A stretch of 64,000 nt of DNA from Aliikangiella marina (GTDB lineage Bacteria; Pseudomonadota; Gammaproteobacteria; Enterobacterales; Kangiellaceae). The DNA lies in NCBI RefSeq assembly GCF_007004765.1, contig NZ_VIKR01000002.1, positions 62,001 to 126,000 on the forward strand. Reading direction: 5' to 3'. Below are positions 14 to 6,504 of this stretch, piece by piece. Made by a program: the position numbers and the translations under genes. The notes below the pieces were generated by a model, which ran no database searches, was not told the DNA's origin, and was given only the letters and a program-made list of their open reading frames with translations. Position 1 is the stretch's first letter. Every line of letters starts with the position of its first letter.

Positions 14-550
14 CTAGGCATCAATCGATTGCGACTTAGTATTAGATTTTACTTTCGCGGGAATACCAACAGCAGTATGGTTTTCAGGTACATTTTCTAA
101 GACAACAGACAAAGCACCAATCTTTGCATTGTTACCGACAGTAACATCGCCTAGAACCTGTGCATAAGCACCTAACTCTACATTGTCACCTAATGTTGGC
201 GCAAACTCGTCATTGTACCGATTCCCGAGAGTAACACCTTGTCTCAAAGTGCAATTTGCACCAATCACGGTGTTTTGGTGAATGAAAACATTACCAAAAT
301 GGTAAATTCTTAGACCACCACCTATTTTTATTGATTTGGCAATGCTAATGCCAGTTGCGAGAGTAACAAAGTGAAAGATTATCCAGTAAAAAGACATCGC
401 AATTTTTTTAAAGAAACCATCTTTCATTAAGTCGATAGACTCGCCTTTTCTATGCCAATAGACAGCCCAAATGGACGGCTCTCTCAGCCACGGCTTTTTA
501 GGGTAACGGCTTAAATCGTCTTTCCATTTTATTTTTATATCTTTATGCAT
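14..550 (-). CDS. Serine acetyltransferase-like hexapeptide O-acyltransferase
   Basis: The 178-residue protein is a left-handed beta-helix acyltransferase. Hexapeptide repeats run from about residue 90 to 160, and the end (AVGIPAKV) is typical of CysE/LacA-like enzymes. It lacks the long N-terminal helical domain of true CysE (about 270 residues), so it looks like the short serine-acetyltransferase-like enzymes found in exopolysaccharide loci, which acetylate sugars or amino sugars with acetyl-CoA. It is divergent from the peptide synthetase at 798 across 247 bases in which I see no convincing promoter or operator. The real substrate cannot be read from sequence. Cysteine biosynthesis is possible but less likely given the length and the neighbours. 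Confidence 0.75.
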   Translation of the reverse strand: MHKDIKIKWKDDLSRYPKKPWLREPSIWAVYWHRKGESIDLMKDGFFKKIAMSFYWIIFHFVTLATGISIAKSIKIGGGLRIYHFGNVFIHQNTVIGANCTLRQGVTLGNRYNDEFAPTLGDNVELGAYAQVLGDVTVGNNAKIGALSVVLENVPENHTAVGIPAKVKSNTKSQSIDA

Positions 551-797
551 TTAACTTGATAACTAGTAAATTTAAGAATGGTCCAGAAACAAAGCGACGA
601 GTTTATATCACTGTAATCTAACAACTATGTTACGAGAAAGCGGATTATATCAAAGAAAAATTAAGAACGCTCGATTTGATGGAATTATAAGTGATAAGAG
701 CAAGATTTATTTTAGCCAGTAGATTTATTCTGTAAGGGAATTTAAGTATCATGAGAACATATAAAATTAACTATCGTACTAGACTGATAAAGTAAAC

Positions 798-3700
798 ATG
801 GATGTATTTAAATCTCAGCCTACTGATAATGCGTATATCGGCTTAGACGAGCTGGAAAAACCAGCTTGGTACGTCGTAGAAGGTAGTGAGTGTAAGAAGC
901 TTTTATTCGATGAAAATAATCTAAATTCTCCATTTACGCGACATTCAATAGAATATGAACCTTTTAGAAACGGCAAGTTTCAAAAAGGATATCCCCTACT
1001 TCAAAATCAATCAGAAATTTGGCTTGCATGTAAACTTGGAGGTATAGCGGCTTCCAAAGCATTCAATATCGCTTGTTCGATTACAATTAATCAACCTTTA
1101 GATATTGAAAAATTTAGTCAAGCGTTTGAACGAGCACTGCATGAAACAGAAGCATTTAAAACGGTGTTTAGTAAGACTGGTCGATACCGACTGATTCAGT
1201 GTGACCCAGTTCACGATTTTGCGTATTACGATGCTGCCAGTGATGGAGCTAATGAAGCTAGCGCAAAGATTAAAGTGAAAATTCGAAACTTTGCGAATCA
1301 AGCATTTTCATTAGAAGCGGGCGGTTTGCTGCGGATCTTATTAATCAAACTAGAAGCCAATAAATATCAACTTGTTATTACAACCCATCATGCGGTCTGT
1401 GACCGAAGAGGACTGTTACTCTATATTGATCACTGTATTGCCAAGTATCATAAATTGGTCACTCAAAGCAGTGATGGAGTGAAAAAAGACATCACTAAAC
1501 GTCTCGCTATAAACGAAGCTACGCCCTTTAATTTGGATCAAGTTAAGAAGTCTCAGGATTATTGGCGCGAAAAAATGACGGTCGAGCATGAATATACCGA
1601 ATTTCCGTTAGACTTTGTTCGAGGTGCCGATAGGCAATATCGATGTGATGTTTATGCTGGCCATTTGGAGGATAGGTTATCCGAAAAACTATTAGCCTAT
1701 GCACGTTCTATTTCAGTAAAACCTAAGATTATTTTATTAACTGCTTATACACTACTTTTGGCTCGCCTAAATCAACAACCAAAAGTCGGTTTTGGATTAT
1801 CTACATCCTTACGAGATAATATATTAGAAAGCCAGTATTTAGGAAACGCCGTTTGTCTGATTCCGCTATTTGCTGATATTTCTTCAATAGAGAATACGAG
1901 GGATTTAATCACGCAGGTTGACCAAACAACCAAGGATATATATCAGTATAACCAGACGAGCTATGGCGAAATAATCGGTTACTCTTCTAGACAACGGTCA
2001 GTTAATAAACCACCGCTTTTTTCATCGACAGTGTCATTTTCCGATTCTCGGGCTGAGCGATTAAGTTATCCGATTTTTTCTGATTCAGCAGTAGAATGGA
2101 TATCAAGGAGTTCCGAATTATTTGATAATTCGGTAAATTTTCAATTTGATGCCGAAAGGATTTATTTTGAATGTTATTTTAATTCAGCGCTATTTAAACC
2201 GGAGATAATCGAAGAACGATTTTTAGAGTTTCAATTGATTTTAAGCGCAATATTAGAAGAAGTTGAAGTATCTCACCTTAACTTACTTTCAAATAAAGGG
2301 AGACAAAATTATCTCAAAATAAATAATACGAAAACGCCTGTACCGAATATGTTATTGCATCAGTTTTTTGAGCAACAGGTAGTACTCTCTCCGACTCAAA
2401 TTGCGGTAATTGATATCGATAGAGAAATTTCATACCAAGCTCTCAACGTTAAGGCGGAAGTTTTAGCACTATCGATTCATTCAAGAGGCTTACCTCAAGG
2501 TAGTGTCATCGGTTTGTGTTTAGACAGAAACATAGATTATTTGGTTGCTATGCTCGCGACACTCAAATGTGGCATGACTTTTCTTCCTATTGATCCAAGT
2601 TTACCTTTGAGCAGAATACGCCACATAGTGACTGATTCTTCGGCACAACTCATTCTGTGTAAAAGCAGCTTTTCAGAGCTGTTTTCGGAAATGTCGGTAG
2701 AATTGTATGACCCATCATCCGCTATTAGCAAATTACCGGCCGAGAAAACTATTTTAGAAGGCATTGAGACTAACCTCGAACAACCTGCCTATTTAATCTA
2801 TACCTCGGGCTCAACAGGGGTGCCCAAAGGGGTAAGAATTTCGCATCGAGCGATAGCGAACTTTCTGTCAGCCATGCAGTCTCTTTTTCCGCTGAGTGCT
2901 AGTGATAATTTTTTAGCTCTCACCACATTTTCATTTGATATATCTTTGTTAGAGCTACTTTTACCCCTCTCTTGCGGTGCAAAAGTAACTATTGCAACGA
3001 GAGAGCAGCGATTAGAGCCTGATGCGCTTGCCAGTTTAATCGACTCTAACGAAATTACTCATATTCAAACAACACCAACAACTTGGCGGTTATTACTCAA
3101 GACAAACTCACAAAGATTGTCAAGCGTTGTCGCTTTGTGCGGCGGTGAAGCTTTAAGTTTGGACTTAAAGAACCAGCTGTTTGAGCGAGTAAAGTGCTTG
3201 TGGAACATGTATGGTCCGACTGAAACAACCATTTGGTCGTCTTGCCATCAAGTTATCTCTGTTGATGAAGACATTTTTATTGGACAACCGATCGATAATA
3301 CTCAGTTTTATATTTTAGGTCAGAACGATGATGTACTTCCCCGAGGTGTGATCGGTGAGCTGTATATTGGTGGTAATGGATTGTTTAGCGGCTATCAAAA
3401 TGCCGAAGCGTTAACGCATGAAAGGTTTATCTCAAAGAATGTTTTAGGTGAAGGGACTGTACAGTTATATAGGACGGGTGATTTAGTCAAATTAACCTAT
3501 GAAAATAAGTTCCAGTTCATATCTCGAGCCGATCGACAAGTAAAAGTCAGAGGGCATCGCATAGAATTGGCAGAAATTGAACATGTCCTCAGTCAACATG
3601 AATCGATCGATGCGTGTCTATCTCGTTTAGTCGAAGTGCCAGGAAATGATAACAAGATTGCCGTGTATGTGAAGTACCGTAACAATTTAAGTGAGACGAC

Positions 3701-4187
3701 GACAGGCTTGCGGAGATTCATGCGAGAGTTTTTACCTGACTATATGCTGCCTCAATTTATTGTACAAATAGATGAGTTGCCGCTAACCCAAAATAAGAAG
3801 GTTGACTATAATGCGTTGCCCAACGTATATAAAACTGAACATCAGCAACACACTCGTGACTTACCGAAAAGCGATATCGAACGGCAGTTTGTTGATATTT
3901 GCGCGGAGATACTAAGCATCGACACTAGTCAAATAAGCTTATCAGATAACTTTTTTGAAATCGGCGGAAACTCGCTCAGCTCATTAAGGGTCATTGAAAA
4001 AGTGAGAGTTTTGACAGGGAAAAGGTTAAGTCCGAGACTTTTTATCCTTGAATCGCTTCGCAATATTGTCAATGAACTAGACCATGAACATTTAAAAAAC
4101 ACAGTCTCGTATTTAGCCAGCAATGAAATCAAAGCTACCAACAAAAGCTGGTTTGATAAACTAAGAAGTAGGCTGTTTCGTCACTAA
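798..4187 (+). CDS. Single-module NRPS (C-A-PCP), predicted glycine-activating
   Basis: This 1129-residue peptide synthetase has one module. A condensation domain covers about 60-500, with HHAVCD at 197-202. An adenylation domain covers about 525-1020, with the P-loop TSGSTGVPKG at 669-678, YGPTETT at 805-811, YRTGDL, and the A10 lysine in LTQNKK. A carrier domain follows, with the phosphopantetheine serine S1059 in GGNS. There is no thioesterase, reductase or epimerase domain. Aligned by eye to PheA, the pocket residues are D714, I715, L718, Q757, L780, G782, M804, I812, W813 and K, the pattern known for glycine. The condensation motif has Arg203 where Gly is usual. The product is unknown. 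The domains are certain and the substrate is inferred. ATG start with no strong ribosome-binding site. Confidence 0.93.
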   Translation: MDVFKSQPTDNAYIGLDELEKPAWYVVEGSECKKLLFDENNLNSPFTRHSIEYEPFRNGKFQKGYPLLQNQSEIWLACKLGGIAASKAFNIACSITINQPLDIEKFSQAFERALHETEAFKTVFSKTGRYRLIQCDPVHDFAYYDAASDGANEASAKIKVKIRNFANQAFSLEAGGLLRILLIKLEANKYQLVITTHHAVCDRRGLLLYIDHCIAKYHKLVTQSSDGVKKDITKRLAINEATPFNLDQVKKSQDYWREKMTVEHEYTEFPLDFVRGADRQYRCDVYAGHLEDRLSEKLLAYARSISVKPKIILLTAYTLLLARLNQQPKVGFGLSTSLRDNILESQYLGNAVCLIPLFADISSIENTRDLITQVDQTTKDIYQYNQTSYGEIIGYSSRQRSVNKPPLFSSTVSFSDSRAERLSYPIFSDSAVEWISRSSELFDNSVNFQFDAERIYFECYFNSALFKPEIIEERFLEFQLILSAILEEVEVSHLNLLSNKGRQNYLKINNTKTPVPNMLLHQFFEQQVVLSPTQIAVIDIDREISYQALNVKAEVLALSIHSRGLPQGSVIGLCLDRNIDYLVAMLATLKCGMTFLPIDPSLPLSRIRHIVTDSSAQLILCKSSFSELFSEMSVELYDPSSAISKLPAEKTILEGIETNLEQPAYLIYTSGSTGVPKGVRISHRAIANFLSAMQSLFPLSASDNFLALTTFSFDISLLELLLPLSCGAKVTIATREQRLEPDALASLIDSNEITHIQTTPTTWRLLLKTNSQRLSSVVALCGGEALSLDLKNQLFERVKCLWNMYGPTETTIWSSCHQVISVDEDIFIGQPIDNTQFYILGQNDDVLPRGVIGELYIGGNGLFSGYQNAEALTHERFISKNVLGEGTVQLYRTGDLVKLTYENKFQFISRADRQVKVRGHRIELAEIEHVLSQHESIDACLSRLVEVPGNDNKIAVYVKYRNNLSETTTGLRRFMREFLPDYMLPQFIVQIDELPLTQNKKVDYNALPNVYKTEHQQHTRDLPKSDIERQFVDICAEILSIDTSQISLSDNFFEIGGNSLSSLRVIEKVRVLTGKRLSPRLFILESLRNIVNELDHEHLKNTVSYLASNEIKATNKSWFDKLRSRLFRH

Positions 4188-4376
4188 AACGCCAGTGATA
4201 GTGATTATTTAATTCGCCTTATTATCAATAATAACGTGGCTGGAAGTCTCGTTGCAAGAATGGCTATTGTAGGAGTTGCTATCTTAGAAATAGTTATCGC
4301 TTTAATTGCGTCCGATCAAAGTTCAAGGTCGTTATACTTGGTTACTTCAAAGAAACCTAATTACATCAAAGGCGCT

Positions 4377-5222
4377 TCAAGAGAAGTGCTCATTCAACCA
4401 TAAAATAATTCGCTCAAAGAGTAATTTTCGATGCGCTAAGATCAAGTATGTATGGTCGGCGGTTTCAAAGTAGGTAACCTCAACGTTTTTAGAAAAATCA
4501 TAGTGACCAAATACGTCGTCAAATTGTTTTTCATAAGAGTAATAACCTCTCACCGCGCCGGTAAAAATAAGGAGTTGATGAAGTCCCTTTTTATACATCG
4601 ATTGCATGTCTTCAATGTAAGAGCTTTTGGCTGGTAGCTTCCAAGTAAAGTCTTGCTCCATTCGCGATTCATACTTTGCTTGTTTGGAGCTAAATAGCCT
4701 GCGTAACTTTCTTGATATTGCTTGGGTAAGTCGCCGTGGTCGAGTGACTATCGGTACGAATCTTTGCATATGGGCGTTAAAGTTTTTATACCCGTAGCCA
4801 TCGAGAGAAACATAACCGATGATTTTCTCGTAAAGAACGCTCGCTTGATGTGCAAGGTCGGCACCGTTACACAAACCCAGGACAATAAACTTATTGGTAG
4901 AAAGTTTTGACTCTATTGCGTCCAATGCATGGCCAATGTCATTGAGATATTGCTGGTTAATATTTTTGGCGTCATTAATTTGTAAATTACTATCGCCTAT
5001 TCCAGATAAATCGAAGCGAAATGCATGAAATCCTTGTTTAGCCAATTCTCGAGCGAGCTCAGTACTCATTCTGAAAGGGCCGGCGCGATTGACTAAGCCT
5101 GCGTTCAAAATCACAACGACGGGCCTTTCGCAGGTAAAATTATCCGAGTCGCCTGGTGCTTCTGCCGGCGTTAGAATACCGACAAGATTATGACTTTCGC
5201 CAAAGGTAATGACGTTTTCCAC
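4377..5222 (-). CDS. Alpha/beta-hydrolase, exosortase-A-associated hydrolase 1 type
   Basis: The 281-residue alpha/beta-hydrolase fold protein opens with a substrate-lid region and the stretch LNAGLVNRAGP, then FRFDLSGIGDS near residues 68-78. The nucleophile elbow reads GLCNGA, so Cys sits where Ser is usual. This combination matches, from memory, the family TIGR03100 (exosortase A system-associated hydrolase 1). The start is GTG, preceded by GGGGAG, which lies in the end of the upstream gene; the two coding regions are only 3 bases apart, so they are co-transcribed. Its biochemical role is not established. Proposed roles are release or editing of acyl or aminoacyl carrier-bound intermediates, which would suit the carrier domain of the convergent synthetase. 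Confidence 0.8.
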   Translation of the reverse strand: MENVITFGESHNLVGILTPAEAPGDSDNFTCERPVVVILNAGLVNRAGPFRMSTELARELAKQGFHAFRFDLSGIGDSNLQINDAKNINQQYLNDIGHALDAIESKLSTNKFIVLGLCNGADLAHQASVLYEKIIGYVSLDGYGYKNFNAHMQRFVPIVTRPRRLTQAISRKLRRLFSSKQAKYESRMEQDFTWKLPAKSSYIEDMQSMYKKGLHQLLIFTGAVRGYYSYEKQFDDVFGHYDFSKNVEVTYFETADHTYLILAHRKLLFERIILWLNEHFS

Positions 5223-5225
5223 GCT

Positions 5226-6011
5226 TTACTCTCCCCTCAAACATTGGCGAATCAATGAAAAGGATTGAGTCGCGGTAAACATTCTTCCTAGTTGCCTACT
5301 ATCGCGCCAATTAGTTAATTGCTGAGATATTACAAGCGGCGAAGAAATCAATCGATTGAGTTGCTCGATTAATTCTAAGTTTTGAGGTTCAGAAGTTACT
5401 GCGAATCTGTTTTTGACTGAATAGCGGTCAACCGACCTGAAAGATAGTGCTTGGAGCTGGCTTTGCAGCTCTGGGCTGTAGTAATGACCAAGATACTCGT
5501 TTTGCGTCTCTGAGACGCTTTCTTCTGTTAAGTAAAAGCGTTCCGGATCCGATATAGCAAATTGATGCATTTCTTTGATTTGTTCCAGAAAGGTTGCTCC
5601 GGAAATAATGGGTTCCCACATAATGAGTTTACTAACTGTTAATGACCGGGTTGCTTCGAGAGCCAGCAGGGAACCAAGTCTTAGTCCTAATAATGAGACT
5701 TTTTGACAGCCAGACTGCTCTTTACACTCTTCCACTGCCGATTGGATATCTTTTATCCAACGAATGACCGAACCTTTATGGCTCTCTCCAGAGGAGTCTC
5801 CGGTTGCATAATAACTAAACCGCAATACTGAAAAACCGTCATTTGCTAAGTAATCACTGAGCAGTTTGAGGGTTTTATGAGTTCGCGCAAATTCGTGGCC
5901 GATAGGAGGACAGATGACCAAGGACTCTCCTCGATCAAACGCTTGATTGGCTAATTGATGAATGCCGAACAGCGGAGCCGATTTTTCGCCGAAGAAAAAT
6001 GCGTTAATCAT
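5226..6011 (-). CDS. Alpha/beta-hydrolase, exosortase-A-associated hydrolase 2 type
   Basis: The 261-residue hydrolase-fold protein has the features of the exosortase A system-associated hydrolase 2 family (TIGR03101, from memory): an early ICPPIGHE segment, RFSYYATGDS, and the elbow GLRLGS, where the usual catalytic Ser is Arg. It is therefore probably not a classical serine hydrolase. It is the first gene of a two-gene minus-strand operon with the hydrolase-1-type gene. I chose the ATG at 6011; a TTG codon lies immediately upstream. The gene lies convergent to the peptide synthetase and divergent from phoB. Confidence 0.8.
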   Translation of the reverse strand: MINAFFFGEKSAPLFGIHQLANQAFDRGESLVICPPIGHEFARTHKTLKLLSDYLANDGFSVLRFSYYATGDSSGESHKGSVIRWIKDIQSAVEECKEQSGCQKVSLLGLRLGSLLALEATRSLTVSKLIMWEPIISGATFLEQIKEMHQFAISDPERFYLTEESVSETQNEYLGHYYSPELQSQLQALSFRSVDRYSVKNRFAVTSEPQNLELIEQLNRLISSPLVISQQLTNWRDSRQLGRMFTATQSFSLIRQCLRGE

Positions 6012-6504
6012 CAATTAAAAGCCTGCAACTAGAGAAGGAGGAAACAATTGTATTTTTGTGATGTATAAACATTTTGAGGTACAACAATAATCCCCAAAAG
6101 TACAAGAGATACTTTTTACTAATGCCCTATACTTATTCTTAGTTAAACAATTGATTTTTATCAACCTTGATGAAAAAATTCCTGTTTTGAGATAGTAACT
6201 GAATAGTCATTAAAATTGAATGTCTCAGTCTGATTTAAAACGGTCCGGTAGTATTTTAAAGTTAAGTCCTTTATTTTTTCGATTGTCGATTTCTTGGATT
6301 GTGAGTTCCTATAACGTTAAATGACAGGGCTCCCATCCTGAAAAACACTTGGTTTATACTAAGCCCAGATATAATCGTCTATGCTATGATTGTTCATAAA
6401 ACTTTCAAAAATGTCACATTAATGTCATTTATCTGCCGGAGAATGCTTACGTTTTTTAAATAACCCCTAGATTTGGGGGCTTTGAGTCAAGTGAGGCCTT
6501 GTAA
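6012..6504. other. Intergenic region upstream of phoB
   Basis: This 493-base AT-rich gap separates the hydrolase operon (leftward) from phoB (rightward). The only strong signal is the Pho box and -10 candidate close to phoB, listed separately. I see no small coding region with a ribosome-binding site, no tRNA and no Rho-independent terminator. Confidence 0.6.
6411..6444 (+). promoter_or_regulatory. Pho box and -10 element of phoB
   Basis: Two 7-base repeats, ATGTCAC (6411-6417) and ATGTCAT (6422-6428), are separated by the AT-rich spacer ATTA, the classical PhoB-binding layout of an 11-base period. A -10 candidate GAGAAT lies at 6439-6444, ten bases after the box. This predicts autoregulation of phoBR under phosphate starvation. 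Confidence 0.8.

Follow-up and report, generated by a model that had tools for sequence, protein, structure and literature searches.

A nonribosomal peptide synthetase without a release domain and a recurring pair of hydrolase-like proteins in Aliikangiella marina: a candidate two-chain off-loading device

Gene organization of the locus

In this work, a window of 64,000 nucleotides of the genome of Aliikangiella marina, a member of the Kangiellaceae (genome G000, positions C2:62001-126000), was analysed. At its left end lie a gene for a nonribosomal peptide synthetase (NRPS) with condensation (C), adenylation (A), and peptidyl carrier protein (PCP) domains and the genes of two hydrolase-like proteins, hydrolase 1 (h1) and hydrolase 2 (h2) (Table 1). 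Below, L-numbers denote loci fetched from relatives and G-numbers denote genomes. An initial annotation of this DNA had proposed a unit of four genes, the three named and that of a hexapeptide acetyltransferase; all four open reading frames (ORFs) exist, and their strands confirm that the hydrolase genes are convergent to the NRPS gene. The h2 ORF extends from 6014 to 5226 on the minus strand (262 aa), with an in-frame ATG at 6011, where the initial annotation had set its end, and h1 starts 3 bases after the end of h2 on the same strand.

Table 1. Features at the left end of the window (positions count from the first base of the window).
Feature	Position	Strand	Description
NRPS gene	798..4187	+	1129 aa, C-A-PCP, without thioesterase or reductase domain (Pfam)
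Condensation domain	981..2306	+	aa 62-503; motif HHAVCDR at aa 197
Adenylation domain	2349..3824	+	aa 518-1009; code DILQLGMIWK
Peptidyl carrier domain	3885..4073	+	aa 1030-1092; GGNSL with Ser1059
h1 (TIGR03100-like)	4377..5222	-	281 aa; Cys118 (GLCNG, codon 4869-4871), His257
h2 (TIGR03101-like)	5226..6011	-	Arg112 (GLRLG, codon 5679-5681, numbered from TTG at 6014)
Hexapeptide acetyltransferase gene	14..550	-	178 aa; Pfam Hexapep; CysE/EpsC/WcaB-like

Domains and glycine pocket of the NRPS

The usual release of an NRPS chain is by a thioesterase, a reductase, or a terminal condensation domain. The window NRPS has Pfam matches to Condensation, AMP-binding, and PP-binding and nothing behind the PCP, which confirms the proposed C-A-PCP protein without a release domain. 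Its match to TIGR01733 reaches 377.1 bits (cut-off 317.4), and the phosphopantetheine Ser of the PCP is present. The C domain matches PF00668 with 160.8 bits, and its motif has Arg instead of the Gly of HHxxxDG. The pocket was rederived by alignment to solved A domains and to relatives and reads DILQLGMIW with the conserved Lys. The closest solved chains over the pocket region are 4zxh (AB3403) and 5u89, the A domains of which we take to activate glycine. The same ten letters are the exact signature shared by four glycine-activating domains that carry a MOX domain (PMC12283262); no MOX insert was seen by Pfam in the window NRPS. Furthermore, DILQLGVI is the predicted glycine pocket in nocamycin (PMC5466765). 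The window A domain is thus predicted from its code to activate glycine, as had been proposed, and specificity for another amino acid is not indicated. Among the matches listed in a plasmid search with the window NRPS, there were only NRPS proteins, at about 30% identity. A 43% partial match, L041 (G006), lies on a contig of 3.3 kb and is a fragment of an NRPS with several domains; it was left out of the counts.

The h1 and h2 proteins

Both proteins beside the NRPS match alpha/beta hydrolase families in Pfam. The best NCBIfam match of h1 is TIGR03100 (70.3 bits; cut-off 168.45) and that of h2 is TIGR03101 (95.4 bits; cut-off 202.75). The GxSxG serine nucleophile is in neither protein, GLCNG standing in h1 and GLRLG in h2. 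The sets aligned consisted of NRPS-linked, orphan, and canonical exosortase-A members, and rows from the class search described below were picked by a hidden Markov model (HMM) score >60 bits. The first alignments had 64 rows of h1 and 59 of h2, in which nine loci were doubled, so that the distinct counts were 55 and 50. Cys was present at the nucleophile elbow in all 59 distinct h1 proteins (55/55, and 4/4 from the phylum check described below), and Arg was present at the nucleophile position in all 53 distinct h2 proteins (50/50 and 3/3). The His corresponding to His257 was retained in 61 of the 64 h1 rows. The fused h2-h1 proteins were also collected, with a minimum length of 480 aa (n = 59, 58 distinct). 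All 59 have the Cys in their C-terminal half; in the N-terminal half, 49 have Arg and the other 10 have Gly. The window pair shows the three features by which the h2/h1 superfamily is defined here, namely adjacency, Cys in h1, and Arg in h2. Because Arg occupies the nucleophile position and no nucleophile is at the usual place, h2 looks like a pseudoenzyme. The Cys at the nucleophile elbow means that h1 could form a covalent thioester.

A fused homologue (L093) was modelled by AlphaFold2 as a two-domain alpha/beta protein, with a predicted local distance difference test score (pLDDT) of 84.6 and a predicted template modelling score (pTM) of 0.86; the model of the window h1 is weaker (pLDDT 76.9, pTM 0.76). 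Ser lipases and feruloyl esterases make up most of the fold matches, and the curacin thioesterase and a LuxD-type thioesterase acting on myristoyl-acyl carrier protein follow further down.

Recurrence of the pair beside NRPS genes

Gene neighbourhoods were searched at three levels. The loci were gathered by query-based thresholds, our own HMMs were built partly from proteins later scored with them, and neighbour genes without a named family match were named by eye. In the order, a search with the window h1 against 394 genomes gave 15 matches in 9 genomes: the window, ten other separate h1 genes, and four in long fused-type open frames (596-662 aa), of which those of G000 and G001 were read. 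An A-PCP NRPS directly adjoins h1 in eight of the ten separate genes (L042, L179, L180, L182, L183, L185, L186, and L187). The remaining two h1 genes (L181:9499-10323 and L184:115-939), in two Kangiellaceae-family genomes, have neither NRPS nor h2 within the stretch read and lie next to an Lrp-like regulator and a gamma-lyase-like gene (by eye). Locus L043 (G021), found through the NRPS search, has NRPS, h2, and h1, and a 308-aa ORF separates the NRPS from h2. In the class, TIGR03100 was searched against 369 genomes and had a match at 1e-20 in 44 and over the cut-off in 28. The over-cut-off loci and the genomes with the carrier-protein cassette described below (G000, G131, G262, and G404) were set aside, and the remaining 13 loci were fetched; an NRPS is directly upstream of the pair or fused to it in five (L223, L227, L229, L230, and L234). 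In the phylum, an alignment of NRPS-linked h1 was searched against 398 genomes, 12 of which had a match at 1e-30. Four new matches outside frames of 575-632 aa were fetched, and two of these loci, L247 (another class) and L248, have a Gly-coded NRPS directly upstream. A stand-alone ligase lies further off in L222, L225, and L232, and an NRPS lies two ORFs away in L246.

In total, there are 17 NRPS-linked loci, the window and 16 further ones. The link between NRPS and hydrolase pair is therefore well supported, and the hydrolases are not unlinked from NRPS genes in relatives. The h2 protein is a C-terminal NRPS domain right behind the PCP in nine of the 17 loci and a separate gene in seven; no h2 was detected in L248. 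The position behind the carrier domain is the normal site of a thioesterase. The set is also kept in L042 of the same-genus genome G003, with about 41% identity to the window for h1, 34% for h2, and 38-39% for the A domain. Exopolysaccharide (EPS) genes flank the unit in the window, L042, L179, and L182 (the last two by eye). At L230:9062-13844, A-PCP-h2 and h1 stand beside a diaminobutyrate-aminotransferase-like gene, with a flippase-like gene further on (by eye).

The A code was read in 16 terminal A domains, L183 being truncated and so uncoded. It is of the glycine type (DILQLG or DILQIG) in ten of them (window, L042, L043, L187, L223, L227, L229, L234, L247, and L248) and in none of four coded non-terminal A domains (second protein of L043, L223, L234, and L247); the non-terminal A domains of L187 were left out of the coding. 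On the basis of this bias in terminal and not in non-terminal domains, the pair tends to meet a glycyl end, though not always. L179 and L182 share the terminal code DVWHFSLVDK, presumably of Ser type. The code of L230, DIEHVTAVTK, is unusual. There is no full C domain in L180, L185, L186, and L230, L185 being cut by the contig end. The conserved core thus consists of A-PCP and h2/h1.

Relation to exosortase-A loci

The initial annotation had called the hydrolases exosortase-A-type. They do resemble TIGR03100 and TIGR03101 of exosortase-A loci, which are their best family matches, and canonical loci have the h2-h1 order beside a carrier protein and the same pattern of Cys in h1 and Arg in h2. 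However, the window proteins score less than half of the family cut-offs. In the h1 tree, the 16 over-cut-off members formed one fully supported group, and the window h1 was outside it, in a group with h1 of the NRPS-linked loci L042 and L043 (Shimodaira-Hasegawa-like approximate likelihood ratio test 93, quick tree method). The NRPS-linked rows were not one clade in this tree, and some branches were long. A search for the exosortase PF09721 gave no match in G000 and none in 8 of the 12 NRPS-h2/h1 genomes tested (14 in all; G1105 and G425 left out); all 4 canonical genomes tested, out of 28, had one match each. The exosortase label is therefore weak for the window pair and is not supported in the strict sense.

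Exopolysaccharide locus and flanking genes

An EPS locus lies to the left of the window, where 38 kb were examined, and the four genes form its right edge. Sulfotransferases, a polysaccharide deacetylase, acyltransferase-3, and one glycosyltransferase pass the Pfam cut-offs in this locus. Weaker NCBIfam matches are a Wzx-like flippase and another glycosyltransferase, and genes for nucleotide sugars and chain length were assigned by eye. At L010:10874-15741, the locus also encodes two PKD/beta-helix-like secreted proteins in tandem, which are alike in sequence (by eye). On the right, phoB, phoR, and pst genes follow from 6505 (read by eye). The four genes had been taken to stand outside the surrounding core; they are real, but they do not form an island in the core genome, since the EPS locus adjoins them. 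The acetyltransferase resembles serine O-acetyltransferases, EpsC, and WcaB and reaches none of the cut-offs among the 25 NCBIfam matches listed. No such gene was noticed beside the relatives of NRPS, h2, and h1, although its neighbourhood was not searched systematically. Its membership in the unit is therefore not supported, and it is probably a gene of the EPS locus. Elsewhere in G000, a very large NRPS gene run of about 190 kb occupies C1:1201954-1388866; its longest open frames reach about 9000 aa.

Neighbouring carrier-protein cassette

A cassette, the last gene of which ends 5.2 kb left of the window (L009:6833-13810), encodes a 79-aa carrier protein, an acyl-CoA dehydrogenase, a DUF1839 protein, a GH2-like protein, and a fused h2-h1 protein. 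Cassettes of this type, with or without an amino acid-[carrier protein] ligase (aaCPL), were also found under planctomycete, acidobacterial, Chloroflexi, and Verrucomicrobia titles. The aaCPL, which we take to be a class II tRNA-synthetase-like ligase, was in the set at 74 of 80 DUF1839 loci (the best 80 of 552; matches <45 bits outside the carrier protein, h1, and h2 groups were dropped). Bll0957 of Bradyrhizobium is a solved ligase of this kind, according to PDB names. DUF1839 is described as papain-like and, judged by its genome context, as possibly acting in glycan processing (PMC10318531). At L051:7962-8948, on a Rhizobium plasmid, a lone DUF1839 gene has a ParB-domain gene as its neighbour and no cassette around it.

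A search for the aaCPL (NF005479) gave no match in G000. The ligase is also missing at L056, L066, L071, L076, and L088, and L093 is truncated. The whole-genome search found none in those six genomes, several of which are incomplete metagenome-assembled genomes; all 8 controls had one each. G000 encodes a stand-alone A-type ligase at C4:547466-548995 (L188:10457-11995, minus strand) with the code DNFFIAMVDK. Counterparts occur in G427-G430 (L076, L066, L189, and L190), to one of which the ligase of G000 is 60% identical. Ligases 58-61% identical to that of L076, or the L076 ligase itself, were found in G000 and G427-G430 and not in G431 or G432. Five of the six aaCPL-less genomes with the cassette intact at the aaCPL site carry such a ligase. 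The 57 aaCPL-bearing genomes (7 + 50) gave no ligase match >39% identity at the thresholds used. All three stand-alone ligases tested exceed the cut-off of the amino-acid adenylation family TIGR01733. From this distribution, a stand-alone class I adenylation enzyme seems to replace the class II tRNA-synthetase-like aaCPL in the cassette.

Discussion

The domain architecture, the pocket code, the conservation and fusion of the pair, and the Cys/Arg pattern are read directly from the sequences. We hypothesize, with slightly better than even confidence, that a two-chain, Cys-based off-loading device replaces the thioesterase in this system and passes a glycyl or acyl-glycyl group to an acceptor. 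The NRPS would activate glycine and retain it as a thioester at the carrier domain of the same protein. In place of a cis thioesterase, which this protein lacks, h2 and h1 together would serve as a two-chain off-loading module. The h2 protein, as a catalytically dead alpha/beta hydrolase, would dock at the carrier domain, to which it is fused in relatives. The h1 protein would then accept the acyl group on Cys118 in a Cys-His type active site. Finally, the glycyl group, or an acyl-glycyl group if the C domain is active, would be moved to a hydroxyl or an amine of a glycan or a lipid-linked precursor. Docking, the covalent intermediate, and the transfer, and so off-loading and polymer transfer as a whole, are what we infer from these patterns, and the acceptor is a guess. 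Given the Cys nucleophile and the polysaccharide made by the locus, transfer is a likelier outcome than simple hydrolysis. The conserved core of A-PCP and h2/h1 favours direct aminoacyl off-loading, and an acyl-glycyl product is possible in the window system. That glycine is added to an extracellular polymer, as had been proposed, is plausible for the window because an EPS locus adjoins; we infer it with reserve, since no EPS genes were seen at many of the NRPS-hydrolase loci.

More tentatively, h2/h1 may be a general two-chain device, composed of a Cys enzyme and an Arg pseudoenzyme, which moves aminoacyl groups off carrier proteins. It would be common to Gly-ended NRPSs, to the glycan cassettes with aaCPL and DUF1839, and to exosortase-A loci, and would aminoacylate, mostly glycylate, extracellular glycans. 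We consider this extension somewhat less likely than not.

Several points weigh against the off-loading device. The nearest folds, which are Ser lipases, esterases, and thioesterases, are equally compatible with hydrolysis. Six of the 16 terminal A domains are not of the glycine type (L179, L182, L180, L185, L186, and L230). The C motif of the window is odd (HHxxxDR), and L042 has HN for HH, so the second His is lost. The h1 genes of L181 and L184 are orphans (two of the ten in the order search), and no NRPS is directly beside h1 in 8 of the 13 class loci (L222, L224, L225, L226, L228, L231, L232, and L233) or in L245 and L246 of the phylum check. The window NRPS is convergent with h2-h1, whereas the genes are in line in most relatives. 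Moreover, L043, L180, L186, L187, L227, L229, and L234 showed no EPS genes (by eye), and a glycan acceptor is therefore not general. Bcam1334, in an exopolysaccharide cluster of Burkholderia, is a TIGR03100 hydrolase, for which AlgL-like polysaccharide quality control and not acyl transfer has been suggested (PMC3584217). Its context supports an EPS link of TIGR03100-type proteins, but with a different proposed role.

The C domain might instead join an acyl donor to glycine, with h2/h1 hydrolysing the product as a trans thioesterase, so that an N-acyl-glycine or another small metabolite unrelated to the polysaccharide would be secreted. HH and D are kept in the C motif of the window, and by eye other systems stand among polyketide synthase (PKS) and NRPS genes, L187 with a thioesterase and a phosphopantetheinyl transferase and L227 with a PKS protein. 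The curacin and LuxD-type thioesterases among the fold neighbours also fit this explanation, and N-acyl amino acid synthases have reportedly been linked to exosortase loci. However, the C domain is missing or incomplete in L180, L185 (which starts at the contig end), L186, and L230, and the second His is lost in L042. Simple hydrolysis needs neither a Cys nucleophile nor a pseudoenzyme partner, and the window lies in an EPS setting. We consider secretion of a small metabolite unlikely, though it deserves weight.

A cyclising release is also conceivable, with h1 acting like a Dieckmann cyclase, as proposed for NcmC on a glycine-ended chain that becomes a tetramic acid. The nocamycin layout is alike: a Gly-coded C-A-PCP protein of 1119 aa with a DILQLG pocket (NcmB, and NcmD in one passage) is off-loaded by a free-standing Cys-Asp-His enzyme of 272 aa, NcmC (PMC5466765, passages available). 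A PKS-like protein is directly upstream in L227. On the other hand, the nocamycin system is PKS-fed and makes a tetramic acid, and its available passages mention no h2-like pseudoenzyme partner (PMC5466765). Inspection by eye of the surroundings of the window genes revealed neither a PKS nor another beta-ketoacyl source. The comparison with NcmC covered the layout and the Cys-type triad. We regard cyclisation as improbable.

It seems quite improbable that the NRPS is the adenylating enzyme missing from the cassette, in place of the aaCPL, with h1 and h2 as spare copies of the fused hydrolase. The cassette, about 5 kb to the left, does lack the ligase present in 74/80 relatives, and none is in the genome. 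However, this gap seems already filled, because the stand-alone A-type ligase is in G000 and G427-G430 and none of that identity is in the 57 aaCPL-bearing genomes, and NRPS, h2, and h1 recur without the cassette in the stretches read. The NRPS was set aside as an aaCPL substitute after this dedicated ligase had been found. A degenerate remnant of a larger cluster, with an inactive NRPS and hydrolase pair, would account for the odd C motif and the convergent order, but it is very improbable as all three frames are intact, the code, the PCP Ser, Cys118, and His257 are present, and the set is kept in L042.

The proposed off-loading device can be compared with known systems. NRPSs such as AB3403 (4zxh) and EntF are C-A-PCP-thioesterase proteins. 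They share the first three domains with the window NRPS, 4zxh being the nearest solved pocket region, but they have a cis thioesterase, whereas the window has a separate two-chain module. The aaCPL cassettes likewise combine an adenylating enzyme and a carrier protein, usually with an h2/h1 protein at the end. They differ in their tRNA-synthetase-like ligase and separate carrier protein, instead of an NRPS module, and in the extra dehydrogenase, DUF1839, and GH2 genes. In aminoacylation of the DltA/DltC type, an adenylation enzyme and a carrier feed an amino acid into a surface polymer. The likeness to the window system would be one of functional analogy in these two components; Dlt has other transfer proteins and no C domain, and DltB/DltD were not searched for here.

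No description of an NRPS-h2/h1 unit was found in the open-licence papers searched. If the proposed mechanism is true, a recurring trans pair, one member of which occupies the thioesterase position as a fused domain in nine loci, would represent a new route of carrier-domain unloading. The two "hydrolases" of exosortase-A loci and the last part of the aaCPL cassettes would thereby gain a first testable function, and NRPS chemistry would be tied to the decoration of polysaccharides. If h2/h1 were a general device as well, three gene sets without known function would be explained at once.

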